A stretch of DNA of 40,988 nucleotides from a virus. The position numbers were made by a program, and so were the translations under genes. The notes beneath the pieces are model-generated. The model searched no databases. It saw nothing but the letters and a program-made list of their open reading frames with translations, and was not told the DNA's origin. The DNA lies in IMG/VR virus record IMGVR_UViG_3300043419_000291, positions 1 through 40,988 of that record; one strand, 5' to 3'. Shown here piece after piece: positions 21,626 to 40,988 of this stretch (its first letter is position 1; every line of letters begins with the position of its first letter).

Positions 21626-23512
21626 ATGACGTTCGAAAAGGGGGCAACTAACCCCAAGACGGCTAAGGCAAACGAAGCCAAAGAGCAGGTACTTATGCTG
21701 GTGGCTGAGGGTATGTCTCTCGCCAAGGCTATGGAGAAGGTGGGCTCGAAGCCCGATACCGCCCGCATCTGGATATACCGAGATGCAGACTTTGCCCGTA
21801 AGTTGGAGCAAGCCAAAGAGGATGCCAAGAGCAACTCTATTAAGTCCCTTGGTATCCCCAAGGAAGAAATCCAGTTCGCTCAGTTCTCTGAGATGTTCCT
21901 GGGTTCTAAAGTATTTCCCCATCATCAGGACTGGGTTGACATATTAGAGGGGCGCGAACCTTCGTGGCTCCACCCTGCTATGACCTATGAGCCTGGGGAC
22001 GCAACCCGTATGCTCATCAATGTACCTCCTGAGCATGCTAAGTCCACCGTCATTACGGTGAACTACTCAACCTACCGTATCGCCCTCAACCCTAACGTCC
22101 GCATCATCGTGGTCTCTAAGACGTTGAACAAAGCACGCGAGTTCGTGTATTCCATAAAGAACAGGTTATCCCATCCCCGCTACGCCAAGATGCAGAATGC
22201 ATTTGGACCTGAAGGCGGTTGGAAAGCAGATGCAGATACCTGGAAGGTCGACACCGTCTATCTTGGGGGCGATGCGCGTGATTCATCCGAGAAGGACCCG
22301 ACTATCCAAGCCCTTGGTATGGGTGGTCAGATTTACGGCGCTAGAGCAGATTTGATTATCTTGGACGACTGTATAACTACAGCCAACGCCCATGAGTATG
22401 AGAAGCAGATTAACTGGCTCCAGAAAGAAGTTATCACCCGTCTGGGTAAAAACGGTAAGTTGCTTATCGTAGGCACTCGAATTGCTCCTACAGATTTCTA
22501 TAAAGAATTAAGAGACCCTAAGCACTGGTCTAACGGTAAGACCCCATTTACTTATATGGGTATGCCAGCAGTTCTTGAGTATAAAGATAAAGTTAAAAAC
22601 TGGGTAACTCTTTGGGGTAGGTCTGATATTCCTTGGGATGGGGATGAAGATACTCCAGATGCAGATGGTCTATATCCTAAATGGAACGGCGAAGCCCTTA
22701 ATAAAAGACGCGGTGAAGTTACCCCTTCTACGTGGGCGCTTGTCTATCAGCAAGAGGATGTGACTGAGGATGCAATCTTCTCAGCACCTTTGGTGCAAGG
22801 CTGTGTCAATGGCATGCGTAAGCGTGGTCCGCTAGACCCAAATAAACCTGGACACCCAGACCGAGTTAGTGGCTATACCATTATTGGCTTTGACCCAGCA
22901 ATGACTGGTAACTCAGCATTTGTGGTAATTAATTATAACGCTGCTGATAGCCGTATATATGTGCTTGACTGTGTAAACATGTCAGAGCCTACGCCTGCAA
23001 AAATTAGAAACACAATTGAAGAGTTGGTTATTACACACCGACCTAATGAGTTGCGTGTTGAGATTAACGCACACCAGAAGGGCTATGCCCTAGATGATGA
23101 TTTGCGCAATTGGCTTGCCCAGTATGGCTGTGACTTAAAGCCACACTTTACTGGTAAGAATAAATGGGACACAAATATGGGCGTAGCATCTATGTCTACG
23201 TTCTTTGGAACAATGCGTGAAGGCAAGTTTCAAAACAATAACGCAATAGAGTTCCCATCTACTGAAGGTTCTGAGGGCATGAAAGCCCTACTTCAACAGT
23301 TGATGACATGGAAGCCAAACACTAAGGGTAAGACTGACTGCGTTATGGCTTTATGGTTTGCCGTACTTAGAGCAAAAGAACTAATGCAAGCGTCTTCATT
23401 TACTAGTCGCTACAAAGAAAACCGTTGGGCTACTAAGGCGCAACTATCAAAACGACAATCAATCAACCTTGATGCTGCATACCAAGAGCAGTGGCAAGAA
23501 CAATTCGGATAG
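21626..23512 (+). CDS. terL: Terminase large subunit with N-terminal helix-turn-helix
   Basis: A 628-residue packaging motor. The ATPase part has a Walker-A-like loop VPPEHAKST (133-141), Walker B ADLIILDDC (241-249) and a coupling motif near LLIVGTR. The nuclease part has IIGFDPAMTGN with the first catalytic Asp, RVEINAHQKG with an acidic residue, and TDCVMALWFA near the C terminus. Residues about 18-60 (VLMLVAEGMSLAKAMEKVG, then TARIWIYRDADF) look like a helix-turn-helix of the type found in small terminases. No separate small subunit was found, so this domain may recognise the DNA. AGGGGG precedes the ATG. It is the first gene of the plus-strand unit. Confidence 0.93.
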   Translation: MTFEKGATNPKTAKANEAKEQVLMLVAEGMSLAKAMEKVGSKPDTARIWIYRDADFARKLEQAKEDAKSNSIKSLGIPKEEIQFAQFSEMFLGSKVFPHHQDWVDILEGREPSWLHPAMTYEPGDATRMLINVPPEHAKSTVITVNYSTYRIALNPNVRIIVVSKTLNKAREFVYSIKNRLSHPRYAKMQNAFGPEGGWKADADTWKVDTVYLGGDARDSSEKDPTIQALGMGGQIYGARADLIILDDCITTANAHEYEKQINWLQKEVITRLGKNGKLLIVGTRIAPTDFYKELRDPKHWSNGKTPFTYMGMPAVLEYKDKVKNWVTLWGRSDIPWDGDEDTPDADGLYPKWNGEALNKRRGEVTPSTWALVYQQEDVTEDAIFSAPLVQGCVNGMRKRGPLDPNKPGHPDRVSGYTIIGFDPAMTGNSAFVVINYNAADSRIYVLDCVNMSEPTPAKIRNTIEELVITHRPNELRVEINAHQKGYALDDDLRNWLAQYGCDLKPHFTGKNKWDTNMGVASMSTFFGTMREGKFQNNNAIEFPSTEGSEGMKALLQQLMTWKPNTKGKTDCVMALWFAVLRAKELMQASSFTSRYKENRWATKAQLSKRQSINLDAAYQEQWQEQFG

Positions 23513-23520
23513 GAACTAAC

Positions 23521-23877
23521 ATGGCTGGAATCGTAGGAGCAGGAATTAAAATTGGCGGACAAATAGTAAAGGCTGCATTTGGAAAAGAAACAGCAAAGAA
23601 GGCTGTCGCTGTGTCAACTAAAAACGCTGCTAAGAAAGCAACAAAAAAGGCTGCGGTAAAGGCTAACGCTCGTGGTCTTAAGGCTGCACAAGGTAAGTCA
23701 CTTGCTCCAAAAAAGTATAAAGCAGATTCTGAAGGACGCAAGCAAGTTAAGCGTTTTGCTGCTCCACTTGAAAAGTTTAATGGCAAGAAGACTTCTATGC
23801 GCATGGGTGCACAGGCAGTTGATGCTGGTCGTTCTTCATTGAAGATTAAAGCAGCAGTCAAGAACCGTAACAAGTAA
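23521..23877 (+). CDS. Basic Lys/Ala-rich protein
   Basis: A 118-residue strongly basic protein; the start at 23521 has AGGA upstream, and the longer frame would overlap the terminase end. An N-terminal glycine/isoleucine-rich stretch (AGIVGAGIKIGGQIVKAAFG) precedes a histone-H1-like part (KNAAKKATKKAAVKANARG). It could bind packaged DNA or be a small virion protein. It sits between terminase and portal with a similar protein directly after it. No family recognised. Confidence 0.65.
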   Translation: MAGIVGAGIKIGGQIVKAAFGKETAKKAVAVSTKNAAKKATKKAAVKANARGLKAAQGKSLAPKKYKADSEGRKQVKRFAAPLEKFNGKKTSMRMGAQAVDAGRSSLKIKAAVKNRNK

Positions 23878-24294
23878 ATGATTAAGCCAAAGAAAAACAT
23901 TGTTACAAAGGTAGCAGGCGTTGCTATTAAGGCTATTACTAAGTCTAACAAGCCATCTCTTAAGGCTGCACAAAAGGCTAAGCCATTGGCTACTCCTAAG
24001 TCTAGTGTTCGTGTAAAGCCTGCTGCTAAACAAAGACCAAATAAGCCAGATGCTGCAAAATTAAACTATAAAAAAAATAGCACGATTGGTCGCGCCGAAG
24101 AAAGTGCTTATCGTCAAAATATGAAAGACCAAAGCAAGGCAAATTATTCTGGCTACGGTGCAGGTTCACATGGAGATGCAAGTATTGAAGCAATGATTGC
24201 AGGAAAAGAAGCAGTCTTGGGACGTAAAACAAAAATTGGTATTCAGAAATCAATGAATATTAAAAAAGCAAAACGACCAAAGAAGTCTAAGTAA
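23878..24294 (+). CDS. Basic Lys-rich protein
   Basis: A 138-residue basic protein starting directly after the previous stop codon. The first half is rich in Lys, Ala and Pro (SLKAAQKAKPLATPKSSVRV); the second half has a less repetitive part (IGRAEESAYRQNMKDQSKAN, then GSHGDASIEAMIAGKEAVLG) and ends KKAKRPKKSK. No motif recognised. With the previous gene it forms a pair of basic proteins before the portal. Confidence 0.65.
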   Translation: MIKPKKNIVTKVAGVAIKAITKSNKPSLKAAQKAKPLATPKSSVRVKPAAKQRPNKPDAAKLNYKKNSTIGRAEESAYRQNMKDQSKANYSGYGAGSHGDASIEAMIAGKEAVLGRKTKIGIQKSMNIKKAKRPKKSK

Positions 24295-24319: not shown

Positions 24320-26065
24320 ATGTTATCAGTTAAGCAGATTGCGGCGCGTGTTGAGTCGCTTAAACACCGCGCACGCGAGCGCGATTCTAGACATGAAGAT
24401 GTCCTAGCAGTACGTCGTGGTCAGATTTCTAGTGTCTATCCTGACTTCTTTCCAGAAGGCGTAGATGCAAACGTAGTAGCAAACTTTATTGATGTTGTTG
24501 CACGAGACCTATCTGAAGTTATGGCTCCGCTTCCTGCTATTAACTGCTCTGCAATTAATCAGGTTGAAGATAAGTCACGCAAGTTTGCTGACACTCGTAC
24601 TCGTATTGCTGCAAACTATTTTATTAATTCAGATTTACAAGTGCAGATGTATACTGGTGCAGACTGGTATCTTACATTTGGTTTCGTCCCTTTCATTATT
24701 GAATTCGACGAAGAGGCAAAACTGCCGCGTGTTCGCATAGAAAACCCTGTAGGTGCTTACCCAGAGTATGACCGCTATGGACGCTGCATTGCTTTTGCCA
24801 AGAAATACCGTATGACAGTTGCCGAATTAGTGTCTCAGTTCCCTGAGCACGAAGAAGGCATTCTTGGCAAAGATGGCTATGAGCAAGACATGAATAGTTA
24901 TCTAACTGTCATTCGATACTACGATAAAGAACAGTCTGTAATTTATGTTCCAGACCGTAAAAACTATCCAGTATCAGTAGCGACTAATCCGCTAAAAAAG
25001 ATGCTAGTTCACATTGCACGTCGCCCATCTATTGATGGCGAAATGCGTGGACAGTTTGATGATGTACTTGGTATTCAATTGCTTCGAAATCGTTTTGCAT
25101 TACTTGCAATGGAAGCAGCAGAAAAGTCAGTACAAGCACCACTTGTTTTGCCTAGCGATGTTCAAGAGTTTGAGTTTGGTGGCGATGGTGTTATCCGTAC
25201 AAATAACCCTGCTGGTGTTCGCCGCGTAGAACTTCCTATTCCTGCTGGAGCATTTAACTCACAGCAAGTTTTGCAACAGGAACTACGTACAGGAACACGT
25301 TATCCAGAATCTCGTAGCGGTAATGTTGATGCGTCAATTATTACTGGTCAGGGTGTACAAGCACTTATGGGCGGGTTTGATACGCAGGTTAAGTCTGCTC
25401 AGGCTATCTTTGCTTCAGCACTTAAGAATGTTATTTCAATCTGCTTTGAAGTTGATGAAACAGTATTTGATGAAAAGAAAACAATTCGTGGCGTAGACGC
25501 TGGTGCGCCATATGCACTTGAGTACACACCATCTAAGAATATTAAGGGTGACTATTCTGCAGATGTACGCTACGGCATGCTTGCTGGGCTTAACCCAGCA
25601 CAGGGACTTATCTTTATGCTTCAGGCATTGGGTGGCGATTTAATTTCCGTTGACTTGGCTCAACGAGAAATGCCGTTTGGCATTAACGTCACACAGGAAC
25701 AAGAGAAGATTGAAGTTGAAAAACTTCGTAAGGCTCTCATTGGTTCACTGCAAGCATATACACAAACAATTCCACAAATGGCATCTCAGGGACAAGACCC
25801 ACTACCTATCATTCAGAAAATTGCTTTGGCAATTAAGGGACGTAAAGAAGGTAGACAAATTGAGGATGTTATTGAGGAAGTGTTTACACCAGAGAATCCC
25901 CCTGCTGGGACTCCAGTTGAGCAACCCGTCCCCTCTGCTCCTGGCGCTCCAGTAGGGGGCGCTCCTGCACAGGGACGACCAGATTTACAAATGCTGCTTA
26001 GTCGTTTGAGTTCAAGCGGAGAGGCATCTGGCTCAGTACAAACGCAACAGCAACGAATAATTTAA
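24320..26065 (+). CDS. Portal protein
   Basis: A 581-residue protein placed directly after the packaging genes, in the usual portal position. The N-terminal half contains DADWYLTFGFVPFIIEFDEE-like strands (TGADWYLTFGFVPFIIEFD), then RVRIENPVGAYPEYDRYGRC, features of portal wing regions. The middle has the helix LLRNRFALLAMEAAEKS and a conserved-looking RYPESRSGNVDASIITGQGV. The C-terminal tail (about 530-581) is Pro/Gln-rich. It forms the ring through which DNA enters and leaves the head. The assignment rests on these patterns and on gene order. Confidence 0.85.
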   Translation: MLSVKQIAARVESLKHRARERDSRHEDVLAVRRGQISSVYPDFFPEGVDANVVANFIDVVARDLSEVMAPLPAINCSAINQVEDKSRKFADTRTRIAANYFINSDLQVQMYTGADWYLTFGFVPFIIEFDEEAKLPRVRIENPVGAYPEYDRYGRCIAFAKKYRMTVAELVSQFPEHEEGILGKDGYEQDMNSYLTVIRYYDKEQSVIYVPDRKNYPVSVATNPLKKMLVHIARRPSIDGEMRGQFDDVLGIQLLRNRFALLAMEAAEKSVQAPLVLPSDVQEFEFGGDGVIRTNNPAGVRRVELPIPAGAFNSQQVLQQELRTGTRYPESRSGNVDASIITGQGVQALMGGFDTQVKSAQAIFASALKNVISICFEVDETVFDEKKTIRGVDAGAPYALEYTPSKNIKGDYSADVRYGMLAGLNPAQGLIFMLQALGGDLISVDLAQREMPFGINVTQEQEKIEVEKLRKALIGSLQAYTQTIPQMASQGQDPLPIIQKIALAIKGRKEGRQIEDVIEEVFTPENPPAGTPVEQPVPSAPGAPVGGAPAQGRPDLQMLLSRLSSSGEASGSVQTQQQRII

Positions 26066-26324: not shown

Positions 26325-26737
26325 TGGCACAACAAGGCGGATATCGCAAGCCAGAGAATCCTGCACCATCTTCAGGACCAGGCGCTCTTTCACAGCGCAC
26401 AGATGGCGGACCAGCACAAGGCGCTAAGTATATGTCAGGTATGCCTTATGGCGAAAATACAATGGACCAGCAAACTGCTGCTCCTATGTCTGGTGGTTCA
26501 CCTATGCCATCGGCGTTAGCATCTATGCCTATGCCTACACCTTTAATGGCACCTACATCACGACCAAATGAACCAATTACATCTGGTATTGATGCTGGTG
26601 AAGGACCAGGAAGTAGCGCACTTAACTTACCTACAGAACAACCTACACTTGCAACTACGTTACGTAGAATTGCACAGTTCGACAATACTGGTGAAGCAGA
26701 ATTACTTTACGCAGCAATCGCTGAATATGGGTACTAA
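26324..26737 (+). CDS. Pro/Gly/Met-rich structural protein
   Basis: A 137-residue protein of low complexity, beginning MAQQGGYRKPENPAPSSGPG, with GALSQRTDGGPAQGAKYMSG and many Pro-Met pairs. It ends in a short helical domain (TLATTLRRIAQFDNTGEAEL). I recall similar proteins in the head modules of other environmental actinobacterial phages. It lies between portal and the giant virion protein and is joined to both neighbours by TAATG. A disordered linker or virion assembly factor is possible. Confidence 0.65.
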   Translation: MAQQGGYRKPENPAPSSGPGALSQRTDGGPAQGAKYMSGMPYGENTMDQQTAAPMSGGSPMPSALASMPMPTPLMAPTSRPNEPITSGIDAGEGPGSSALNLPTEQPTLATTLRRIAQFDNTGEAELLYAAIAEYGY

Positions 26738-29700
26738 TGGCTCGCATTGTCAAACCCGTTGTTGCGGAGTTAAGTCCTAATATTTACACGGCTGCAAAGT
26801 CTGCCAATCTTTCACCTGAAGAACAAACTATTGTCGAGCAGTTTTCTTTTACTGTTAAAAATGCAAAGCGCCTTCGTGCTATGGATGGTAAGGCTGCAAA
26901 GCAAGAGTTTCAGAATTTAACAGAGGATGCACAGGCAAGCATTCGTGCAATGTATCCTAATGCTGAGTTTGCTAAAGATGACCCATCTGTTGCTCAGAGA
27001 CTGTTGGGCTTGGGAGTAAGTGCAGTAAAACTTGCTGGCTCTCCTATTATTGCTACATTTAAAACTGCTATTGAGTATGGAAAAACAATCAATACGGGTT
27101 ACTCTGCTGTTCGTGAGATTCAGCAAGGTGCAAGTCCTACTGAAGGAATTGAGCCACTTAATGCTTTAAAATTAAAAAATCCATTTGCTAACACAGTATG
27201 GTCACAATCATACAATGGTCGTGAACTATATGACAAAGGTGCAGTTAATCGGCTAGAAACAAAGCATGGAAAAGAAAAAGTATTTGTAGCAAAGGGACTG
27301 CTTGCAGGAAAAACTCCTGGCGAAATTGTTGAAGAGTACGGTAAGCCAGACAAAAATATTGCTGATGCAATTATGACAGCATTTGATGAGCCAGATGAAT
27401 TTAATATTATTCTAGGTGACGTTAGATATGCACAAACATCACCAGGCAGAGACATTACTCGTTATGCTTTAGAGGCTAGACCAACATCTGCTGGCGGAAT
27501 TATCACAAGAATTCTGCTTAATGTTGGCGAGAAGCCAGAAAATAAAAAGAAAATTGCTGAGTGGGAAAAGAAAATCAAAAAGCGCTCTGGATTCATTGAC
27601 GCTTTCTATCAGATTATTGTAGACCCACTAACATATATAACTGGTGGAACAACCAAGATTGCCACTAAGGGTGGAAGACTTGCCGAGAATGTAATGAATC
27701 AGGCTAAGAATGGAAACTATTCTGGTTCTATTAAGCAAGTATTTGCAGAACCTGATGTTCGTAATCTTTGGAATGGCGACCTTGGTAAACTAATTAAAGA
27801 CTATGCTGATGCTCCCAATACGGCAGTAAAGCAAAATGCCTACCGTACTATTGCTCAGAACTTTCCTGGGTTTAGCGACTTTAAAACAGTAGATACTCTT
27901 GCAAAGAATCTTGAAACTTTTGATGCTGATGGTGCCGAGAAGTTCTTTGGTGAGATTAATAACGTAACACTTTTGCTTAATGGTCGCGTAGATGGCGTTA
28001 CATTTATGCGTAATGGTATTGCTACTGCTCGAAATCAACGCCACATCAGCGGTGGTATGGCTACAGCAGCAGATGCTATCTTTAATCCTAGTGCAACTAA
28101 TGCAGCGGTTGGTTCGAAGTTAGATAAACTACAATCTAAGGGTATGGATACAATTAGTATTCTTAAAACCGTTGGAGAAGATATTGACTTTGGTGTAAAC
28201 AAGGCTGGAGTTTTAACATTTTCTGATATTGATAAAGATATCAAGACAGCGCGTAGAATTTCAGAAGCAATTGGTCGCATAGCAGCACGCAATCCAGCAG
28301 GAAGCCAGATTATTCTTGGCGAAGATGCTATTAAAACTGCTGAAAACTTTAGACTTGTAGCCCGTCAGGTATTTAATCGTGACCTTGCTGACTTTGTTAC
28401 ATTTGAGTTTATTAATTCTAACATGGATGAGCAAGTTGTTATCTTGCGTAACCTTTACGCATCTGTTATGTACCGATATGGTCTGCATGGCACAGCAGAA
28501 GGTACTCAACTTATTGAAGAAGTATTAAAAAGAACATTTAATAACCGTTCTGGTATGACAACTACATCTCGTACAGAAATCCCAGAGGACTTTGCCTCTG
28601 AAGTTAGCACACATGCCCTTAAGATTGAAAATGATTCAAGACTTCTTGCTGCTCGTGGCATTGTTCAGCCATCACAAATTGCAGATGCAATTGGAAACCT
28701 GCCATATGAGCAGATTATCCAAGTAGCAGCACAAACTCGACGCAAGAATTCTATTCCAGCGCTTTTTGATGGTGCTACACGTAACCGATATGTTAGCGAG
28801 TTTGTTAACTTTTGGACAATTCTGACTCTTTTTCCTCGCCTTGGTATTCGTTCTGCTATTGATGAGACATTTATGTATGCGCTTAGTGCGCCAGCACGTG
28901 ATTTGCTTAACTTTGCTAGACCATCTGTTAAGAAAGAAGGCGCAGTACTAACTGCACTTACTGGTTCTAAAGCAGCAGTTGGTCCAATTAAGCGTGGTAT
29001 TAATAAAGCATTCCGTAAGGGTGGAGCAGAAGAAAAACTTTCTATTGAAGAAAGAATCCGCATACCACAGGACCTTGCAGAACGCCTTGGTGTTCCAGTA
29101 GAAGAAATTACACATATGCAGATTCGTGAAGAAACTGTAAATCGTGTATTTCGTATGTTTGGTGTAGATGAAACAAGCAGTAACTTCTCTTATATTAAAG
29201 AAGCATTTGTTTATCACCCAGATGTGCTAAACTCAATGGCATCATCTGTTGCTGCACGTACATCTCTTGGTGGAAGATTTGATAAAGAGATTATTGATGC
29301 GGTATTTACTCCATCTACTTTGTCACAGGCTTTAAATGACGCATCTCTTAAGACTGGTAGAAAGTTTAGAGCCATATCTACAGAAAAGTTGCGTAGTACA
29401 AATGACAAGTGGCTAACACTTGCTCACTTTGATACATGGTATCGCCAGTTTGTGCCTAACACTAAGTCATTAGGTGATAATATAACCGTTGACCCAATCA
29501 ATGCATTCTTCCGCAACAATGGACTTAGAACAACTAAAGATTTTGCTACTGCTAGAACTGAAATGCTTGAAGTAATTGGTGTTTCATATGACTATACAAC
29601 ACGTCAGTTTAGTATTAAGCGTCCAGATACTATTAAGAAGTTCTTGAATCTTTTTGGAGACTCTTTATACTTTAGTCAACGTGGTGTTCAGCCAGCAGAA

Positions 29701-31917
29701 ATTGCACGTATCCATATAGAGACAATGCTGCTTGATATGCGCAATACTTTTCATGGTGGACCTAAGTCTTTTAATGAAGAACTGTGGACTTTACTTACAG
29801 CCAAGCATAACAACTTAGTTGCTTATGAAATGGAAAGCGGTAAGAAGATACTAGGCAAGTGGTCTAAGGTTTCTAACTCTGTTACATTTGATGAGTTTGA
29901 AAAGGCTACAGTAGGTAAGCAACCAGTTGGAGAAATCAATACATCTATTGAATTTCCTGCATTAGTACCAAAGGCTGAACTAGAATCAGCATGGGCTAAG
30001 GCTGGTAATGGAATTATGGAACAGATGGACCGTCAGGTTACAGGTTTGTTCCGTCAACCAGCAGTATTATCTACATATACACGCCTTCGTGAAGGCTACT
30101 CTGGACTACAAGATGAATACACTGCTCTTGTCTACAAGCAATTAAAGGCTGAACGCCCTAATATGCCAGATGATGTATTAATGGAACGTGCGGAAAATAT
30201 GGCACGTAAACGTTATACAGAAATTGCCATGTCAGAGGCTACTGATTCCGTTCTTAAGTATGTAGATAACCCAAATGTCCGTTCTAATCTTGCACTATCA
30301 ACTAGAACAGTTGCTCGTTTCTATCGCGCAACCGAAGATTTCTGGCGACGCTACTATCGTTTGATGCGAGAGAAGCCATTGCAGGTTATTTACCGTATGC
30401 GTTTAGCCCATCAAGGTCTATCTGCTCGTGGAGAGATTCACTATGATGAGAACAATGAACCGTATGTAGTATTACCTACAGATGCTATTATAAATGCAGC
30501 AGTAGAACCAACAATGCGCAAGTTAACTGGTTCATCATTTAAGGTTCCACAGTTTAATGATATTACTTTAAAGTTAAGATTGATTAACCCATCATTCTCA
30601 CCTGATGCTGGACAGCCATCACTATCTGGTCCTGTTGCGGCACTATCGTTTATTGGTTTTAAATCAATTCTTGGATATGCACCTGGACCTTTAAAGGCTC
30701 CAGCAGAAGAGTTTGCTAATGAGATTGATACATTTGCACTAGGTAATCTTGGTGACAATATGACAGTACAGCGTGCAATTGTTCCTTTGTTCTTGCAGAA
30801 TCTAAGAGACATCATGCCACGTATGGAACTATCACGTCAAGAAACTACTGCTGCTTTTCAGGCTATATCTTATATCCAAGCATTTGGTGATGAAAGTACA
30901 CGACTACCTGATAACCCAACAGATAAACAGAAGAACGAATACATTAAGAGTATCAAACTTGCATCACATAATATTGTTGCTGCTCGTGCTTTACTCGGTA
31001 TGATTTCTCCTATCTCGCCAACCTTGCGTGAAAGCAAGGGAGTTCCTGATTACATTAAGAACACTGGTATTACCAGTATGCGTGCAGAGTTCTATGACAT
31101 CCTTGCTGGTATCTCTAAGACAGAATCAGATGATGTATTCGATGCATATGAACTAGCAGTTGCTATGTTTGTTGGCAAGAATCCAAGAAAGATTATCTAC
31201 ACAGTGGCACGTAATGAAAGAAACACTAAGGTTCTTATTCAAAAGACTGACCAAATGAAGAGATGGTCTATCTACAATAAATCTTTTATTGACACATATG
31301 GTGAGGCAGCATTTGTATTTGCGCCACAAGTGGGCGACTATACAGCAGATGCTTATAGTTGGATGGAATCGCAAGACTTTATCAAGTCACCTAAACTTGA
31401 AGACTATCTAACTAATGTGCAAACAGCACAGTCTAAGCAGGCTTACTTTGATATTGCTCGTCAAGAAGAAGAAGCACTAGCAAATCAGGGCAGCATACCG
31501 GCACGTAAAGCAATTATTGCAGATGCAACTAATCGCCGTAATGCCTTAAAGATAGCAAACCCTATGCTTAACACAGCACTATCTACTGGTGGTTTTGAGG
31601 TTGGCACAGAGGAAGCAATTCTATCTTCAATTGAGCAAGCACTAGATGATAAGTCAACACCTATGTCTACTCAACTGCGAAAGAATATGGCTATATCAAC
31701 AAAGTTGATACGCGATTTTATCTCTTTCTCTAAAGACCCAGAGATGAAACTCATCTGGAACTTTACAGATGCTAAGCGCGAAAAGCGTAATGAAATTGAA
31801 ATGCTTCTATCAGACTTGATTAAAGCAGACCCATCTATCAGAGAGGCTAACCGAGCAGTGTTTGCACCTATCCTTGGATTCTACTCTCGTGACACCTACT
31901 CAGTTGGAGGCAAGTAA
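26737..31917 (+). CDS. Giant virion protein (1726 residues), putative internal/ejection protein
   Basis: By far the longest gene in the genome. The protein is mostly helical and charged, with no tape-measure-like repeats, no signal peptide and no clear transmembrane spans; a hydrophobic stretch near residue 690 (FVNFWTILTLFPRLGIRSAI) is a possible membrane-active region. I see no peptidase, lysozyme or polymerase motif that I can trust. It follows portal genes and precedes two further helical proteins and the scaffold. In podoviruses this position often holds internal virion proteins that are ejected with the DNA, so this is my best inference. It overlaps both neighbours by TAATG. Confidence 0.7.
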   Translation: MARIVKPVVAELSPNIYTAAKSANLSPEEQTIVEQFSFTVKNAKRLRAMDGKAAKQEFQNLTEDAQASIRAMYPNAEFAKDDPSVAQRLLGLGVSAVKLAGSPIIATFKTAIEYGKTINTGYSAVREIQQGASPTEGIEPLNALKLKNPFANTVWSQSYNGRELYDKGAVNRLETKHGKEKVFVAKGLLAGKTPGEIVEEYGKPDKNIADAIMTAFDEPDEFNIILGDVRYAQTSPGRDITRYALEARPTSAGGIITRILLNVGEKPENKKKIAEWEKKIKKRSGFIDAFYQIIVDPLTYITGGTTKIATKGGRLAENVMNQAKNGNYSGSIKQVFAEPDVRNLWNGDLGKLIKDYADAPNTAVKQNAYRTIAQNFPGFSDFKTVDTLAKNLETFDADGAEKFFGEINNVTLLLNGRVDGVTFMRNGIATARNQRHISGGMATAADAIFNPSATNAAVGSKLDKLQSKGMDTISILKTVGEDIDFGVNKAGVLTFSDIDKDIKTARRISEAIGRIAARNPAGSQIILGEDAIKTAENFRLVARQVFNRDLADFVTFEFINSNMDEQVVILRNLYASVMYRYGLHGTAEGTQLIEEVLKRTFNNRSGMTTTSRTEIPEDFASEVSTHALKIENDSRLLAARGIVQPSQIADAIGNLPYEQIIQVAAQTRRKNSIPALFDGATRNRYVSEFVNFWTILTLFPRLGIRSAIDETFMYALSAPARDLLNFARPSVKKEGAVLTALTGSKAAVGPIKRGINKAFRKGGAEEKLSIEERIRIPQDLAERLGVPVEEITHMQIREETVNRVFRMFGVDETSSNFSYIKEAFVYHPDVLNSMASSVAARTSLGGRFDKEIIDAVFTPSTLSQALNDASLKTGRKFRAISTEKLRSTNDKWLTLAHFDTWYRQFVPNTKSLGDNITVDPINAFFRNNGLRTTKDFATARTEMLEVIGVSYDYTTRQFSIKRPDTIKKFLNLFGDSLYFSQRGVQPAEIARIHIETMLLDMRNTFHGGPKSFNEELWTLLTAKHNNLVAYEMESGKKILGKWSKVSNSVTFDEFEKATVGKQPVGEINTSIEFPALVPKAELESAWAKAGNGIMEQMDRQVTGLFRQPAVLSTYTRLREGYSGLQDEYTALVYKQLKAERPNMPDDVLMERAENMARKRYTEIAMSEATDSVLKYVDNPNVRSNLALSTRTVARFYRATEDFWRRYYRLMREKPLQVIYRMRLAHQGLSARGEIHYDENNEPYVVLPTDAIINAAVEPTMRKLTGSSFKVPQFNDITLKLRLINPSFSPDAGQPSLSGPVAALSFIGFKSILGYAPGPLKAPAEEFANEIDTFALGNLGDNMTVQRAIVPLFLQNLRDIMPRMELSRQETTAAFQAISYIQAFGDESTRLPDNPTDKQKNEYIKSIKLASHNIVAARALLGMISPISPTLRESKGVPDYIKNTGITSMRAEFYDILAGISKTESDDVFDAYELAVAMFVGKNPRKIIYTVARNERNTKVLIQKTDQMKRWSIYNKSFIDTYGEAAFVFAPQVGDYTADAYSWMESQDFIKSPKLEDYLTNVQTAQSKQAYFDIARQEEEALANQGSIPARKAIIADATNRRNALKIANPMLNTALSTGGFEVGTEEAILSSIEQALDDKSTPMSTQLRKNMAISTKLIRDFISFSKDPEMKLIWNFTDAKREKRNEIEMLLSDLIKADPSIREANRAVFAPILGFYSRDTYSVGGK

Positions 31918-34471: not shown

Positions 34472-34963
34472 ATGAGCAACAACAACAACTGGGATAATGA
34501 CGACGACCTAGATATGTATAACGAAGTCAATCAAGACGAAACGAATGGTATTAAAGACCTTCGTAGAGCCAAGAAAGCCGACGAAAAACGTATCAAAGAA
34601 CTCACAGAAAAGTTGGAAATGTTTGAACGCCAACAGCGTGAGACTACAGTTAAGTCAGTCCTAGAATCCAAGGGAGTCAACTCCAAGGCTGCCCGTCTAA
34701 TCCTTAAGGATTTAGATGAAGTCAACGAAGAGTCAGTTAATACTTGGCTCCGCGAAAATGGAGATATTGTCGGATATACCGAACCAGTAGAAGAAGAGGC
34801 TAAGCCAAACGTGCGCGAGTTTACTCGCCAAGATGGTGCAACTCAATTTGCTGCGACTCCCGACGTTTCAGATGAATATGTTGATATGTTACAAAACTAT
34901 GACGGACACTCTGAAGAGGAATTACTATCCATAATCCAGAGCATCTCTAACAAGATGCAATAA
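34472..34963 (+). CDS. Capsid scaffolding protein
   Basis: A 163-residue acidic protein with the make-up of a scaffold: a disordered acidic N terminus (NNNNWDNDDDLDMYNEVNQD), a coiled-coil region (about 28-62, KKADEKRIKELTEKLEMFER) and a C-terminal helix (HSEEELLSIIQSISNKM). It lies directly before the major capsid gene, the classic position. It would guide procapsid assembly and then leave. No protease motif was seen in it. Confidence 0.8.
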   Translation: MSNNNNWDNDDDLDMYNEVNQDETNGIKDLRRAKKADEKRIKELTEKLEMFERQQRETTVKSVLESKGVNSKAARLILKDLDEVNEESVNTWLRENGDIVGYTEPVEEEAKPNVREFTRQDGATQFAATPDVSDEYVDMLQNYDGHSEEELLSIIQSISNKMQ

Positions 34964-34985: not shown

Positions 34986-36173
34986 ATGGCTGATAACTTT
35001 ACAACTTCAACCTCTGGTTTAGGTTCCAATCTTGTAACTTTGGCATACGATAAGTTGATTGAACTCAACCTTCGTTCAGTGCCACAGTTCCGCGCAATCG
35101 CGGACAAGAAAATTGGAAGCCCAACCCACGACGGTTCTTCAATCCGTTTCCAGTTTCACAATGATATTGCTGACACCACAATTGCTGGTGCAACACTCGA
35201 TGAAACTGTAGACCCAGATGCAGTAGCACTTCCATCAACTACAACACTAGATGTCGCTCAGACAGAACTAGGTCGCGTAGTGCTCCCAACACGCAAGTTG
35301 TCACTTATGTCACTTGCAGATGTTGACCCATGGATTGCTAACGCAGTTGCGTTCAACATGGCAACAACACTAGACAATGGTGTTGCTGCTATTCTTGATG
35401 CAGGTACAAACGTCATCCGCGAATCCGCTGGTGCACTTTCAACAACTGCTGCTAAGTCAACAATCGTAGCAACAGACACATTTAAGGGACGCGACGTACG
35501 TTACGCTGTAACAAAGTTGCGTGCTTCAAACGTTGTTCCACGTGGCGGAATGTATGTTTCATACATCCACCCAGAAGTCTCACACGACCTTCGTACAGAG
35601 ACAGGTAACAACATCTGGCGTACACCACACGAGTACCAGAACGCTGGTCCACTATTTGCTGGTGAACTAGGCGCATGGGAAGGTGTTCGTTTTATCGAGA
35701 CACCACGCATGACTAACTCAATCTCAGGTGGTGCTCTAACAGCACTTGCTACTGCTCCTGCAGTAAGTGGTGTTTCAGGTGCATTCACAATCGTTGCAGC
35801 AAACGCTGCATTCGGTGGTCTTGCTGAGGTCGGAGATGCTATCTCTGGTACAAACGTAGGTTCAGGTGCTTTGATTACAGCAATCTCAGTTGGCGCTACA
35901 AACACAACATTCACTGTGTCTGTTGCTAACTCAGGAACTGTTGGAACAAACACTCTTACAGTTACACCAAAGGCTCGTGTTTACAACACTTACGTACTAG
36001 GACAGCAAGCACTTGCTGAAGCAGTATGGAAGGAACCAGGCATTGAGTTTGGTAACGTTGTAGATAAGTTGAACCGCTTCCGCCCAGTCGGCTGGCATGG
36101 AATTATCAACTGGTCTATCTACCGTCAAGAGGCGCTATACCGCATCGAGACTGCTTCATCAGTTCGTCCATAA
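34986..36173 (+). CDS. Major capsid protein
   Basis: A 395-residue protein after the scaffold gene. The N-terminal part (NLVTLAYDKLIELNLRSVPQ, then GSSIRFQFHNDIADT) and the segment RDVRYAVTKLRASNVVPRGG, followed by YVSYIHPEVSHDLR, have the look of the HK97-fold capsid proteins of the N4-gp56/P22-like groups. Residues about 243-320 are a separate Ala/Gly/Thr-rich beta domain that seems inserted before the final strands (ARVYNTYVLGQQALAEAV and the C-terminal part). The inserted domain may be exposed on the capsid surface. The gene has an AAGGTA-like site; two hairpins follow its stop. Confidence 0.88.
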   Translation: MADNFTTSTSGLGSNLVTLAYDKLIELNLRSVPQFRAIADKKIGSPTHDGSSIRFQFHNDIADTTIAGATLDETVDPDAVALPSTTTLDVAQTELGRVVLPTRKLSLMSLADVDPWIANAVAFNMATTLDNGVAAILDAGTNVIRESAGALSTTAAKSTIVATDTFKGRDVRYAVTKLRASNVVPRGGMYVSYIHPEVSHDLRTETGNNIWRTPHEYQNAGPLFAGELGAWEGVRFIETPRMTNSISGGALTALATAPAVSGVSGAFTIVAANAAFGGLAEVGDAISGTNVGSGALITAISVGATNTTFTVSVANSGTVGTNTLTVTPKARVYNTYVLGQQALAEAVWKEPGIEFGNVVDKLNRFRPVGWHGIINWSIYRQEALYRIETASSVRP

Positions 36174-36242: not shown

Positions 36243-36494
36243 ATGGCATACAAATTTACAACACCTACAATCAGCGAAGGACCTGCTGGTGAAGGGCGTT
36301 TATTCAGTCGCTATAGGCTTGTGCGTGGCATAACAGTACTTAAGATAGAGGGAGAGTATTACGAAATTCGATTTCCTTCCTCAGAAGAAATTGCAGAGGC
36401 AGATGTTGCGTATATCGGGGGATATTCGTATGAAGTCAGCCTAGGAGAAAAGACAGACCTTGAGGCTGCAGGATACGACGTGGAGACTATATAA
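36243..36494 (+). CDS. Small head protein
   Basis: An 83-residue, beta-rich protein (FSRYRLVRGITVLKIEGEYY, EIRFPSSEEIAEADVAYIGG). It has a strong ribosome binding site (AGGAGG) and follows the capsid hairpins. The size, beta pattern and position fit a head-completion or decoration protein, but no family is recognised. Confidence 0.68.
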   Translation: MAYKFTTPTISEGPAGEGRLFSRYRLVRGITVLKIEGEYYEIRFPSSEEIAEADVAYIGGYSYEVSLGEKTDLEAAGYDVETI

Positions 36495-36932
36495 GTGTGT
36501 GAACATATCAGTAAGGTAATTGAATGGGGATTTACTGACGCTCACGATTTTAAAGTTACAAAGTATGGATGCTTAAACTGCAATGAAGTTTCGGACGTAC
36601 CATTCTTGTCAAAAACAATCGTTGTTGACCATACCACTTGTGGTGGACCAGAGGTCTGCTTCGGATGCAAAGCAACAGGACTCTTGTTGAATACTGGAGA
36701 TGCTTCTTCACAGAAGCAAACTAGCAACAAGAAGTGGGAAGGCGAATTAAAAGCCTACCGCAAGGCAAGGTCTGAAGGAATACAACCAGCAGGCACAACT
36801 TTAAAATCAATTCAAGAGGCTCAGAGAGCATCTGATTCTATGGGTACTGCTTATAACGCTAATACCATGCCTGATACAAACATAATCCAAAATAAAACAG
36901 TATCTAAACTCAAAGAAGTAGGAGCAATATAA
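36495..36932 (+). CDS. Head-module protein with a Cys-rich N terminus
   Basis: A 145-residue protein starting at a GTG directly after the previous stop. The N-terminal half has cysteines at 2, 26, 29, 49, 55 and 58 (YGCLNCNEV, then EVCFGCKATG), likely one or two zinc sites. The second half is helical and basic (KWEGELKAYRKARSEGIQPA, then LKSIQEAQRASDSMG). Proteins with this half are, as far as I recall, found near capsid genes in other phages. Its role, perhaps in DNA packaging or head completion, is not known. It ends in TAATG with the next gene. Confidence 0.65.
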   Translation: MCEHISKVIEWGFTDAHDFKVTKYGCLNCNEVSDVPFLSKTIVVDHTTCGGPEVCFGCKATGLLLNTGDASSQKQTSNKKWEGELKAYRKARSEGIQPAGTTLKSIQEAQRASDSMGTAYNANTMPDTNIIQNKTVSKLKEVGAI

Positions 36933-37123
36933 TGCCAATGTTCGGAGCAAAGAAGTTTCCATATACACCAGCAGGTAAAAAGGCAGCAAAGGCTTATGCC
37001 GCTGGCGAGAAGATGGAATCCAAGTCTGAGAAGATGATGGAAATGAAAAAGGGTATGAAAAAGAAGGCTGTTAAAAAGTCTGCTAAGAAGGCAATGCCTA
37101 AGAAGATGGGCAAGAAGAAGTAA
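36932..37123 (+). CDS. Small Lys/Met-rich basic protein
   Basis: A 63-residue protein starting MPMFGAKKFPYTPAGKKAAK and then almost entirely Lys, Met, Ala and Ser (KKGMKKKAVKKSAKKAMPKK). The N-terminal KFPYTPAG-x-K/A-A motif is seen in small phage head proteins. Charge-neutralising DNA binding is a reasonable inference. It is linked by TAATG to both neighbours. Confidence 0.65.
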   Translation: MPMFGAKKFPYTPAGKKAAKAYAAGEKMESKSEKMMEMKKGMKKKAVKKSAKKAMPKKMGKKK

Positions 37124-37437
37124 TGAAGAAGCCAAAGCCTGCACCACGCGCTACAAAGCGCGGTACTCCAGCACCTATGCCTAAGAAAACATTAAAGCCA
37201 GGCGAAGGTCAACGTCGCCCTGCTGGTCCAATTACAAAGAAACCAATGGCTGCTAAGACAAAGAACAGTGGTCCAACAATAGTTTTTGGAGATGGAAGCA
37301 CTGTTGGTCTTAAAGACATTGGTAAGGTAAAGCCAACACCAAAGGCTGTTAAGCCTAAGCCACTTCCTACAATATCTAACAAAGAGTATTTTAAACGACA
37401 GAAAGAATATGTCGATTCAATGAAAAAGAAAAAGTAA
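37123..37437 (+). CDS. Basic Pro/Lys-rich protein
   Basis: A 104-residue basic protein, rich in Pro, Lys and Thr (KKPKPAPRATKRGTPAPMPK). The middle has a short hydrophobic piece (GPTIVFGDGSTVGLKDIG) and the end is helical (NKEYFKRQKEYVDSMKKKK). It is coupled at both ends by TAATG. No recognised family; it is part of the run of basic proteins between capsid and connector genes. Confidence 0.62.
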   Translation: MKKPKPAPRATKRGTPAPMPKKTLKPGEGQRRPAGPITKKPMAAKTKNSGPTIVFGDGSTVGLKDIGKVKPTPKAVKPKPLPTISNKEYFKRQKEYVDSMKKKK

Positions 37438-37610
37438 TGAAAAAGCATCCAGGATTCAAAGCGGTACAGAAAAAGATTGCTGCTCGTCAAGGTGTATCAA
37501 TGGCAGGTGCGGGTGCAATTCTCGCTTCATCTGCTAGAAAAGCATCTAAGCAGGCTGTAGCAAAGAACCCACGCTTAAAGCGTGTTACAGGAGTTAAGAA
37601 GGGCAAGTAA
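37437..37610 (+). CDS. Small basic phage protein (HPGFKAVQKKIA type)
   Basis: A 57-residue protein starting MKKHPGFKAVQKKIAARQGV, then GAGAILASSARKAS and NPRLKRV. I recall this pattern from small proteins in many phages of marine and freshwater bacteria. It is highly basic and probably helical with one small hydrophobic patch. It is coupled by TAATG to both neighbours. A DNA-binding or head-associated role is inferred. Confidence 0.68.
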   Translation: MKKHPGFKAVQKKIAARQGVSMAGAGAILASSARKASKQAVAKNPRLKRVTGVKKGK

Positions 37611-38005
37611 TGGCATACACCAAGGCAGCACTTAGAGAGCGTTTAAAGAACCAGATTATGGCTGGCTCCAAAGGTGGCAAGCCTGGTCAGTGGTCTGCTC
37701 GTAAGGCTCAACTTTTAGGTCAGGCTTACAAGAAAGCAGGTGGTGGGTACTCGGGTCCTAAGACTAAGGTTCAGGCTTCTCTGTCCAAGTGGACTAAAGA
37801 GAAGTGGGGTACTAAGTCAGGTAAGCCCAGCACACAGGGGTCAAAGGCTACTGGTGAGCGTTACCTTCCTAAGAAGGCTAGAGAGGCTCTATCAGCCTCT
37901 GAGTACGCTAAAACTACCGCTGCAAAGCGGGCTGGCATAAAGCAGGGCAAGCAGTTTGTAAGACAACCAAAATCTATTGCAAAGAAGACGGCTAAATTCA
38001 GATGA
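37610..38005 (+). CDS. DUF5872-like basic protein
   Basis: A 131-residue basic protein with the pattern GSKGGKPGQWSARKAQLLGQ, then AYKKAGGGYSGPKT, SLSKWTKEKWGT, RYLPKKAREAL and KQGKQFVRQP. This matches what I remember of DUF5872, a domain found in tailed phages and in large algal viruses. Its biochemical role is unknown. The gene begins in a TAATG overlap and ends in an ATGA overlap. Confidence 0.7.
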   Translation: MAYTKAALRERLKNQIMAGSKGGKPGQWSARKAQLLGQAYKKAGGGYSGPKTKVQASLSKWTKEKWGTKSGKPSTQGSKATGERYLPKKAREALSASEYAKTTAAKRAGIKQGKQFVRQPKSIAKKTAKFR

Positions 38006-38286
38006 AGAAAAAAGATTCTCGCCTAGCAAGGGCAGGAGTATCAGGCTTTAACAAGCCTAAGCGTACTCCAAACCACCCAAAGAAGTCCCATGTAGTTGTT
38101 GCTAAAGAAGGTAATGTCGTTAAGACAATCCGCTTTGGACAGCAAGGTGTCAGTGGTTCTCCTAAGAAGGCTGGAGAATCTGCTTCATATGCGGCGCGTC
38201 GCAAGTCATTTAAGGCGCGACACGCCAGAAATATCTCAAAAGGAAAACTAAGCGCAGCATACTGGGCAGATAAGGTCAAGTGGTAA
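38002..38286 (+). CDS. Basic conserved viral protein (GVSGFNKPKRTP type)
   Basis: A 94-residue basic protein with SRLARAGVSGFNKPKRTPNH, HVVVAKEGNVVKTIRFGQQG and a C-terminal RHARNISKGKLSAAYWADKV. I recall this pattern from many environmental phages and some algal viruses, often next to DUF5872 proteins, as here. Function is not known to me. A nucleic-acid-binding or virion role is inferred from charge and place. It ends two bases before the next gene. Confidence 0.7.
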   Translation: MKKKDSRLARAGVSGFNKPKRTPNHPKKSHVVVAKEGNVVKTIRFGQQGVSGSPKKAGESASYAARRKSFKARHARNISKGKLSAAYWADKVKW

Positions 38287-38287
38287 T

Positions 38288-39685
38288 ATGGCTAGAGCAA
38301 CAGTTAGTGGTGGCAGAGGCGGAAGACGACCTAAGCCAACTCTTAATTCTAAGTTAACAAAGTTTGCACGTTCTGTTCCTGGAATTGTAGGAGCGTCAAT
38401 TATTGAAGGCGTTGGTGGACCAAAGGCTAAGGTTGCTACTCGTGCTGCTGGAACTATTATAGGCAGAAGCCGTGGTCTTATTGGTAAAACAGTTCCTAAA
38501 AAAGGACGCAACTATGCTGCCGATAGAGAACGAGCACGTGAGATTGCTAGTGAGCGTTTAGCCACACGAAACAAAACACAAAAAACACGTGCTGGCGATA
38601 AAGTAAAGATTAATCCTGCTGCATTAGGTTCTAGTGTTAAGTCTGGTAAACCAACACCAAATCGTGGTGGTGGACTTAGAACAACAACTGGTCGTCCTAA
38701 AACTAAAGTTACTAAAGGCGATGTATTTGAGGCTGTTCGCAGCATGAGAAAGTCTCCTAGTGGTTCTTCAACAACAACTGGTACTGGAGCGGTAAGAGGT
38801 ACAGCACCTAAACCAGGTGTTCGTATTACTACAAGAACATCTGGTGGAACTGAACGTCGTATATTAGGTCCAGAACAAAAAGTTAATGTTAAAATTAAAA
38901 AACGTACAGAAGGTCCTAGTCGTCGTGTTCCTGAAAAAAGAACTGTAACTCAAGGTCGTATTGTAAGAGATATTAAAGTTGAACGATATGAAAAGCCACC
39001 TATTCAAGAAAAAAATGTTTCTGTAACTAGAGTCCCTTCATATCCTAAAGAAAAAGTTACTGTTCAAAAACCTCTTAAAAAAACTAACCCTAAAGAAAAG
39101 GGTAGTGCAATTACTGTACGCCAAGGAACTCCACGCAAACCTTCTGATGTTCGTGAAAGAATGCAAAGAGAACGTAGAGATAGATTGCGCGAGTCTTTAA
39201 CTCCACGTCTAAATCCTGCTCGTCCTAAAACTACACCACAACGTGGTGCTGGTGGTTCTGGAAATAGTAGAGAACGTAATCAAGAAATTATTGATAGATA
39301 TTACCGCATTAGATTTCGTGACCAAGGTGCACCTACAGCAAGAAGCGCACAAGGTAAGCAAGGTTCAATTGAAAGCCGTGTTGCTTCTGGTTCTGAGAAG
39401 CCAACAAGAGGTCGTAGCAATTCTAGCGACTACGATAAAGAAGCAGAGAATCTTCTTAACCGTTCGCTACGTGCATTAGAAGACCCTAAAGTATCTGCTA
39501 AAGAAAAAATAAAGCCAGGTAAGCGAACAAATGTAGCCAAAGCAGTTAAGAGCCGTAACCGCGGTAAGATTATACGTGCAAATAAAAACATGCGTAAAGT
39601 CCTTAGAGAACGTGAAATTAAAGAAGCGGCTGAAAGAATGCGTAAAGCAGAAGAAGCAGCCAAAAAAGCAAAGAGGGCTAAATAA
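38288..39685 (+). CDS. Large Arg/Lys-rich basic protein
   Basis: A 465-residue protein with very high Arg, Lys, Gly, Thr and Pro content and little hydrophobic core. A short N-terminal region (TVSGGRGGRRPKPTLNSKLT, then SVPGIVGASIIEGVGG) is the only part with order-like features. The middle is repetitive (many VKxxRx, PKxTVQK, RxPSD). The end is helical and charged (REIKEAAERMRKAEEAAKKA). It looks like a DNA- or RNA-binding, probably disordered, virion protein. It overlaps the connector gene by TAATG. No family recognised. Confidence 0.68.
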   Translation: MARATVSGGRGGRRPKPTLNSKLTKFARSVPGIVGASIIEGVGGPKAKVATRAAGTIIGRSRGLIGKTVPKKGRNYAADRERAREIASERLATRNKTQKTRAGDKVKINPAALGSSVKSGKPTPNRGGGLRTTTGRPKTKVTKGDVFEAVRSMRKSPSGSSTTTGTGAVRGTAPKPGVRITTRTSGGTERRILGPEQKVNVKIKKRTEGPSRRVPEKRTVTQGRIVRDIKVERYEKPPIQEKNVSVTRVPSYPKEKVTVQKPLKKTNPKEKGSAITVRQGTPRKPSDVRERMQRERRDRLRESLTPRLNPARPKTTPQRGAGGSGNSRERNQEIIDRYYRIRFRDQGAPTARSAQGKQGSIESRVASGSEKPTRGRSNSSDYDKEAENLLNRSLRALEDPKVSAKEKIKPGKRTNVAKAVKSRNRGKIIRANKNMRKVLREREIKEAAERMRKAEEAAKKAKRAK

Positions 39686-40608
39686 TGGCATCAACACTAG
39701 ACGTTTTAACTGACGAAGTAGTAATGAACCTTGCTGGCTATACACTGCAGCAAGACCGTACTACTCACTTAACTTCTGCTATTGCTACAACTACATCTAC
39801 ACTAGCAGTACCTACTACGTTCTCGCTGAACGCAGATGAAGTTGGTACTGGAATTGTAGAAATTGGCGATGAGTTGCTATGGATAGATTCATATGACCGT
39901 ATTTCTAAGACAGCAACTGTACCGCCGTATGGTCGTGGTTTTATGGGTACTACAGCAGAGACACATGTTGCTGGAGACCGTGTAGTTATTACTCCTACAT
40001 TCCCACGCTCATCTGTTAAACGTGCAATTCAAGATACTATCCGAGCCATTGGCTCTGGCATCTTTGCTGCTAAGAATACTTCCTTTAATTACAATTCAGT
40101 TGTAGATACATATGCTTTTGAAAATTTAAACATCCAGAATATTCTGCGCATGTCATGGCAGGACATTGGTTCTACTAAACGTTGGATTCCAATTACACGA
40201 TTTTCTTGGGATTCATCTCCAGATGCAACTACCTGGGGTTCTGGTTCACAGACTATAACAATTAATGATAGGCATATTCATGCTGGTCGCAAGGTTAATG
40301 TTACCTACGCAACAGCACCTGCAACACTTAGCACTACAGCAACAACATCATTTGCAGCACAAACTGGACTACCTGAATCAGTAAGGGACGTAGTAGTTCT
40401 TGGAGCGTCATATCGTCTGCTCTCATTCCTTGACCCAGCACGCAATGCAATCACTAGCCCACAGGCTGATGAACTAGATAGCAAGCGTCAATACGGTTCA
40501 AGCAATGCAGCAACACGTGCGCTTTATCAACTCTTTGCAGCACGCTTGGCTGAAGAGACACAAGCACAGCAACAGCAGTATCCGCCACGTATTCGTTACA
40601 GCCGATAG
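39685..40608 (+). CDS. Connector / tail adaptor-like protein
   Basis: A 307-residue protein. Residues 26-100 (HLTSAIATTTSTLAV, then GIVEIGDELLWID, GRGFMGTTAETHVAGDRV) form a beta domain also present at the N terminus of the following fibre protein. The central part has helices (RSSVKRAIQDTIRAIGSGIF), and the C-terminal part, RDVVVLGASYRLLSF and ARLAEETQ, is like adaptor proteins at the head-tail joint. It probably joins the portal or tail to fibres. The gene overlaps the basic-protein gene by TAATG and precedes the fibre gene by nine bases. Confidence 0.72.
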   Translation: MASTLDVLTDEVVMNLAGYTLQQDRTTHLTSAIATTTSTLAVPTTFSLNADEVGTGIVEIGDELLWIDSYDRISKTATVPPYGRGFMGTTAETHVAGDRVVITPTFPRSSVKRAIQDTIRAIGSGIFAAKNTSFNYNSVVDTYAFENLNIQNILRMSWQDIGSTKRWIPITRFSWDSSPDATTWGSGSQTITINDRHIHAGRKVNVTYATAPATLSTTATTSFAAQTGLPESVRDVVVLGASYRLLSFLDPARNAITSPQADELDSKRQYGSSNAATRALYQLFAARLAEETQAQQQQYPPRIRYSR

Positions 40609-40617
40609 GAACCGTCA

Positions 40618-40988
40618 ATGACAGTTAGAAAATACTCATCCCGTTCGCAGAAGACCACACTATCATCTGCTATTACATCATCAAGTGCATCAATTAACGT
40701 GGTGTCTGCAGCAGCACTTATGGGTGGTAAGACCCTAACTGCTGGACAAACATACACAGTTGTTATTGACCCTGATACAGCAATTGAAGAAATTGTAGAT
40801 ATTTATTCTTCTTCAACTAACCCTGTATCTGGTAATACAATTGCTATTGCTCGCGGTATTAATGGCTCTACTGCACAGGCTCACTCTGCTGGTGCAGAGG
40901 TTCGCCACATGGCTATTGGTCGTGACTATCAAGAAGCAAACGACCATGCTGAGAATGTAACAACAGCACACGGTCTAACTATTGCTAA
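40618..40988 (+). CDS. Tail fibre protein, N-terminal part (continues at base 3)
   Basis: The start ATG at 40618 has AGGA upstream. The open frame runs off the end of the window and continues in the left end across the joined circle (40618-40861, then 1-1928), giving 723 residues. Residues about 13-97 (TTLSSAITSSSASINV, EEIVDIYSS, ARGINGSTAQAHSAGAEVRH) resemble residues 26-100 of the connector-like protein just before it. This N-terminal domain probably attaches the fibre to the particle. The rest of the protein is described under the left-end entry. Confidence 0.88.
   Translation, partial: MTVRKYSSRSQKTTLSSAITSSSASINVVSAAALMGGKTLTAGQTYTVVIDPDTAIEEIVDIYSSSTNPVSGNTIAIARGINGSTAQAHSAGAEVRHMAIGRDYQEANDHAENVTTAHGLTIA
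40862..40988. repeat. Terminal direct repeat, right copy
   Basis: Identical to bases 1-127. It contains part of the tail-fibre gene in the same frame. Removing one copy gives a closed genome of 40,861 bp. Confidence 0.97.

Follow-up and report, generated by a model that had tools for sequence, protein, structure and literature searches.

Tailed phages are held to balance the charge of their packaged DNA with cations and polyamines. In bacteriophage T4, about 1000 internal proteins are embedded in the packaged DNA and their lysines contact the phosphates (PMC3012670). These internal proteins are diverse between relatives and are injected with the DNA, and three of them have been shown to block GmrSD restriction enzymes (PMC3012670, PMC12373910). 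Among other viruses, the chlorovirus PBCV-1 has several abundant basic genome-associated proteins in its virion, for example A278L, A282L and A523R (PMC3281028). Here we describe a locus in a viral genome of 40,988 nucleotides (IMG/VR record IMGVR_UViG_3300043419_000291, positions 1 to 40,988; the whole stretch is called the window), in which six consecutive genes at 36932-39685, between the capsid gene and a connector-like gene, encode strongly basic proteins (b63, b104, b57, b131, b94 and b465, in this order). We suggest that this cassette may well be a modular set of head-associated, lysine-rich, DNA-binding 'internal' proteins, working in the manner of those of T4 without sequence kinship to them.

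A preliminary description of the window had reported these six genes, and two further ones for basic proteins of 118 and 138 residues (b118 and b138) after the terminase. This was borne out by the positions of the open reading frames and by the computed isoelectric points (pI), which were 10.4-12.0 in the cassette (Table 1), and the total for the eight proteins was 1,170 residues as reported, with a net charge of +240. In the six cassette proteins, lysine and arginine made up 25-35% of the residues and acidic residues 0-9%, and their net charges summed to +186. When a gene was counted as basic if its product had a pI above 9.8 and more than 19% lysine plus arginine, exactly 8 of the 64 genes called in the window were basic, all of them between the terminase and the connector. 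A chance origin of the run of six is therefore unlikely (permutation with eight basic genes among 64, p = 2.2e-5). Overlaps of one to four bases join most of the cassette genes to the next start, a pattern that would be expected if the genes are co-translated. The proteins had also been described as partly disordered. A charge-hydropathy estimate agreed with this, but b94, b131 and b57 are strictly conserved and go beyond low-complexity tails. b94 matched phrog_7595 over its full length (residues 2-94, E = 2.9e-40) and b131 strongly matched phrog_17747 and phrog_14910, while neither b118 nor b138 had a family match. Sequence searches of the PDB gave insignificant matches only, mostly to ribosomal proteins. 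The predicted structure of b131 was helical (predicted local distance difference test, pLDDT, 73), with no significant match in the PDB and with unnamed proteins as the best matches in a viral library. That of b94 was set aside for its low confidence (pLDDT 57).

The slot between capsid and connector was compared among 80 viral contigs that encode a relative of the capsid protein and a cultured relative, of which 53 were readable from the capsid gene to the connector. The genes in the slot were counted with a simple gene caller, and the loci are interrelated and hence not 53 independent trials. After p83 and zf145, two genes that form the invariant left border, there were 4-8 small genes in each of the 53 loci. 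The pI exceeded 9.8 in 304 of the 305 slot proteins. Lysine outnumbered arginine in 301 of the 305, so that an arginine dominance like that of protamines was not found in the related loci, and among the eight basic proteins of the window only b465 had more arginine than lysine. Clustering with the window included yielded about 30 families and 31 ordered arrangements in 54 loci, and the arrangement differed in 94 of the 116 pairs of loci whose capsid proteins are at least 95% identical. Thus, the slot keeps its position and charge while the sequences are exchanged. Relatives of b63 hold the first position in nearly all related loci and those of b104 occur in about 20. The two domains of b131 are separate genes (about 60 and 78 residues) in many relatives, and in many of them the cassette is closed by basic proteins of about 106-381 residues which are equivalent to b465 in position. 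No relative of b118 occurred in the head-module loci compared, and the annotated phage collection held no relatives of b63 or of another cassette family (FWDKPNP type). We also observed further short basic families that the window's family has in common with large unrelated phages (basic islands of L018, L031, L043 and L118, L136, L181), including proteins of the 'LHSGKGG...VKSRKQAIAIALSEA' and 'NPxPKKKSxxLTPxxKxKAKARAKAAGRPYPNL' types.

Selection on the cassette differed between its members. The median ratio of nonsynonymous to synonymous substitution rates (dN/dS) against relatives was 0.05 for b94, 0.08 for b131, 0.14 for b57 and 0.27 for b63, compared to 0.12 for the capsid protein. Because these ratios are low, the open reading frames of the cassette are real genes. 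The constraint is strong on b94 and b131, stricter than on the capsid protein, and moderate on b57. In b104 the median was 0.55 and in b465 it was 0.61, the latter from one comparison only. Such ratios, together with the simple composition of these two proteins, would fit functionless low-complexity reading frames that are basic through composition alone. However, the slot is uniformly basic in 53 loci and four of the six cassette genes are under purifying selection, which leaves this explanation with almost no credibility.

The set turns over rapidly among close relatives. This might instead point to counter-defence, with proteins that are carried in the head and, once injected, block restriction or other defence systems of the host. 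The T4 proteins Ip1-Ip3 act in this way, each against a different one of the GmrSD enzymes (PMC12373910), and the genes of polyvalent injected proteins are typically found among those for the virion (PMC5512222). However, b94 and b131 with their dN/dS of 0.05-0.08 are alike across very different hosts, unlike proteins in an arms race, and the simple basic tails show no obvious specificity. A counter-defence set is thus improbable in our view.

The preliminary description regarded such proteins as unusual for tailed phages of this size. This does not hold for aquatic phages, because each of b94, b131 and b57 had more than 530 confirmed stretches among the matches listed from IMG/VR viral contigs. 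Carriers of b94 included phages of roseobacters, SAR116, cyanobacteria, Vibrio and others, and the protein is strictly conserved across phages of many hosts. Roseophages of the SIO1 and CRP types and cyanophage S-CBS2 are cultured examples. Those of b131 included phages of SAR11, roseobacters, SAR116, Methylophilales and cyanobacteria. In 84,980 bacterial and archaeal genomes there were 57 matches to b94, all in metagenome-assembled genomes or bins as judged by their titles, and b94 thus appears to be, in practice, a viral protein.

Outside the window's family, these proteins also have basic neighbours. The immediate neighbours were basic in 70-89% of the cases for b57, in 67% for b131 (position -1) and in 23-33% for b94, against a background, five or more genes away, of mostly 0-18% and up to 30% just upstream of b131 (Fisher p = 1e-47, 3e-13 and 1e-7, respectively). 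PHROGs were used to scan the nearest larger genes whose products are not basic. Head closure Hc3 was found downstream of b94 in 16 of 62 cases, and other neighbours of b94 were several terminase families, portal, head-tail adaptor and capsid. At least 20 of the 79 neighbours of b57 were a major head protein, and b57 was often located after the major capsid gene. It lies one gene ahead of the terminase in a Bradyrhizobium phage, and in the jumbo phage Atu_ph07, whose virion proteome has been published (PMC6102473), a b57-like stretch is included in an annotated protein of 278 residues (AUZ95303). A glycosyltransferase family (phrog_34859) was seen as well, in 16 of the 79 nearest larger neighbours of the b57 islands (L253-L332). 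For b131 the neighbours were mainly the unannotated phrog_12985 (27 of 99), with some capsid and virion proteins and several endolysins, and its link to the head is therefore weaker than that of b94 and b57.

In a T4-like contig (L142), b94 forms the C-terminal part of a protein of 223 residues (5611-6282), whose gene is located between the portal gene and the genes for head protease, scaffold and capsid. In T4, the matching position holds the genes of the prohead core proteins gp67 and gp68. The same sequence was present in a second metagenome sample (L252), and a search for additional T4-like fusions of b94 gave nothing beyond it. b94 also matched part of phrog_220, 'minor head protein and DNA pilot' (E = 5.4e-5).

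These neighbourhoods bear on two further explanations. In several carriers b94 or b131 adjoins endolysin genes, as might be expected if the proteins were made late and stayed out of the virion, binding host or phage DNA, RNA or ribosomes in the cell, or if they were cationic peptides that aid lysis. The link of b94 and b57 to head genes, the invariant slot from capsid to connector and the T4-like fusion in a head cluster speak against this, and we give it little likelihood. The proteins could also act only during assembly or packaging and be absent from the particle, as basic cofactors of scaffold, portal, terminase or connector, which would hold on to DNA or to the acidic scaffold during head construction and filling. 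In four loci (L203, L207, L211 and L219) the basic genes are flanked by an acidic scaffold-like gene on one side and by the capsid gene on the other, and b94 and b57 often directly precede a terminase or connector gene. However, the free exchange of families at constant charge is easier to reconcile with a loose role based on charge than with proteins that specifically partner conserved machines. We regard assembly factors as possible but rather unlikely.

The preliminary description proposed either protein-based condensation or neutralisation of the packaged DNA, or a basic internal core. In the former case, the eight proteins would replace cations as the main counter-charge of the DNA. All eight are strongly net positive, and chloroviruses package abundant basic proteins with their DNA, but the same paper reports no evidence that basic proteins contribute much to the DNA charge balance in phages (PMC3281028). 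The 40.86-kb genome has 81,722 phosphates, compared to the net charge of +240 for one copy of each of the eight proteins. Full neutralisation would need about 341 copies of each, which would amount to some 44 MDa of protein, compared with 26.6 MDa for the DNA. Because the proteins would outweigh the DNA, bulk neutralisation is implausible and we consider it very improbable; this part of the proposal was not supported. Neutralisation of 10% would take 34 copies of each protein, which is possible. Thus, the basic proteins may contribute locally but could hardly replace cations.

A basic internal core, in the form of the modular set suggested above, is the best reading of the charge, the position in the head module and the links to head genes, with presence in the particle as its presumed part. 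We favour it because the proteins are real, basic and encoded in the head module, and because their families are tied to head or packaging genes elsewhere. In its support we count the conservation of the slot, the basic and head-gene neighbours, the fusion in L142, the match to phrog_220, the selection on b94 and b131, the near-absence of b94 from cells and the precedent of the T4 internal proteins. From this we infer binding of nucleic acid, action in or on the head and carriage in the particle. The cassette proteins would be made together with the capsid, from genes that are tightly packed and mostly overlapping. They would probably become part of the prohead or enter the head along with the DNA, in up to tens of copies each, would contact the DNA phosphates inside the capsid and, at ejection, would exit together with the DNA. 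The conserved b94, b131 and b57 may serve generally to order, package or eject DNA, while the fast-changing b63, b104 and b465, and their replacements in relatives, may be interchangeable accessory proteins associated with the DNA.

Several points weigh against this explanation. We found no virion proteomics for any carrier, and the searched passages of the papers on Cobavirus (PMC6775973) and RCA-phage (PMC6918029) show none. DNA binding is deduced from charge only. The late region of several roseophages, pelagiphages and cyanophages has b94 or b131 at its end, close to lysis genes and outside the head module. The N-termini of the eight proteins have no targeting tag in common and share scattered 5-mers only, and the T4-like fusion of b94 rests on one virus. 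The families taken singly are mostly catalogued, with unknown function. A cassette of this kind, in which the charge is kept and the sequence exchanged, was not found described in a limited literature search, by which absence is not proven.

The head module lies in a window with an exact terminal repeat of 127 bases (1-127 and 40862-40988), and the window thus fits a complete circular phage assembly, as expected from such a repeat. An open reading frame of tail-fibre type leaves the end of the window from 40618 and resumes at 3-1928, so that both pieces are a single gene. The genome encodes an endolysin and a WhiB protein (9258-9539). Its terminase, portal and capsid proteins are 61%, 68% and 48% identical to those of the cultured phage LanE43AprE7 (OX376640), which was isolated on 'Ca. 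Planktophila' (PMC10202952). Because of the WhiB gene and this resemblance, the host is likely a freshwater actinobacterium.

The order of the head module is terminase (21626), two basic genes, portal, proteins of 82, 137, 1726, 411 and 397 residues, a scaffold-like protein of 163 residues, capsid (34986-36173), p83, zf145, the six basic genes and the connector-like gene of 307 residues (Table 1). The protein of 163 residues is likely the scaffold, judged by its position and acidity, and the position of the last gene suggests a connector role. The large terminase has 628 residues, of which the first 70 also match small-subunit families; this suggests that small and large subunits are fused. 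b118 has 118 residues from its ATG and 128 if GTG at 23491 is the start. The protein of 1726 residues (26737-31917), between portal and scaffold, has no PHROG match and an identity of 26-62% among relatives, and its position makes it a candidate for an internal or an ejected protein. A protein of 402 residues (6740-7948) immediately precedes the lysis region; it has a hydrophobic N-terminus, a long stretch rich in proline and glutamate and no PHROG match.

Table 1. Basic genes and head-module features of the window
Feature	Position	Strand	Description
Large terminase	21626..23512	+	phrog_38 match
b118	23521..23877	+	pI about 11; directly after large terminase; ATG start at 23521
b138	23878..24294	+	138 residues, pI 10.6; directly before portal gene
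Portal protein	24320..26065	+	phrog_104 match
Acidic 163-residue protein	34472..34963	+	Upstream of capsid gene; phrog_7813, unannotated family
Major capsid protein	34986..36173	+	phrog_1357 match
p83 and zf145	36243..36932	+	Invariant left border of the cassette slot; zf145 at 36495-36932
b63	36932..37123	+	63 residues, pI 10.4, 35% lysine, no arginine; opens the cassette
b104	37123..37437	+	104 residues, pI 10.7, rich in lysine and proline, fast-evolving
b57	37437..37610	+	57 residues, pI 12.0, no acidic residues; conserved HPGFK...NPRL family
b131	37610..38005	+	131 residues, pI 10.9; two conserved helical domains; phrog_17747 and phrog_14910
b94	38002..38286	+	94 residues, pI 11.4; phrog_7595
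b465	38288..39685	+	465 residues, pI 11.6, net charge +80, arginine and lysine, low-order
307-residue connector-like protein	39685..40608	+	phrog_7578; right border of the slot

According to the preliminary description, two of the families occur in large algal viruses as well. For b131, the match to DUF5872 (PF19197) had an E value of 2.6e-5 and a score of 25.2 bits, just below the curated cut-off of 27.5, and covered mainly the N-terminal domain. All 27 relatives of b131 that were scanned matched this model, likewise below the threshold (best E = 9.1e-6), and b131 is likely related to DUF5872. The DUF5754 model (PF19058) picked b94 in 19 of 24 carrier records, all below the curated cut-off and mostly with partial coverage of the model, and 3 of 14 control genomes also gave sub-threshold matches. 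The algal virus CpV-BQ1 lists both DUF5872 and DUF5754 (PMC12085832). DUF5754 is Tlr6f, an uncharacterised protein known from polinton-like viruses, virophages, giant viruses and some phages (PMC4642659, PMC12220804); like b94, it is small, viral and widely distributed. A distant kinship of b94 with Tlr6f is probable. The algal connection stands better for b131, while for b94 the match is weak.

The location of b94 among head and packaging genes is a clue to its function, and to that of Tlr6f if the distant relation is true. A slot with a kept charge and exchanged sequences in very common aquatic phages makes the view that cations and polyamines balance the DNA charge testable with cultured Planktophila phages. 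We can also imagine, although we doubt it, that aquatic tailed phages share a mobile pool of at least about 30 small basic families, which crosses unrelated lineages and overlaps in part with the families of algal giant and polinton-like viruses (Tlr6f, DUF5872). These families would be inserted in head operons, selected for charge and not for sequence, and would form a chromatin-like protein layer on the DNA in the capsid. If true, this would be a chromatin-like system in tailed phages and would give the first functional hint for Tlr6f.

Compared with catalogued families, the strong matches of b94 and b131 in phrog_7595, phrog_17747 and phrog_14910 are annotated as of unknown function, with no link to a cassette or a head. 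The phage LanE43AprE7 (L081) shares the gene order, a b94 of 76% identity and basic genes in the same slot, but its basic families are other and fewer ones and it has no large protein like b465. The PBCV-1 proteins differ from the cassette in that they are much larger, some with kinase domains, and belong to a membrane-containing virus, with no relation shown. To the T4 internal proteins we saw no sequence relation. No N-terminal targeting sequence is shared and no head protease was found in the window's head module. The T4 copies are known within packaged DNA, whereas the cassette is known here from its genes. Because a shared targeting tag is missing, we do not claim the cassette proteins as members of the T4 internal proteins. 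However, like Ip1, Ip2 and Ip3 of T4 and its T-even relatives, they are a small, basic, lysine-bearing set that is diverse among close relatives and encoded with the head genes.

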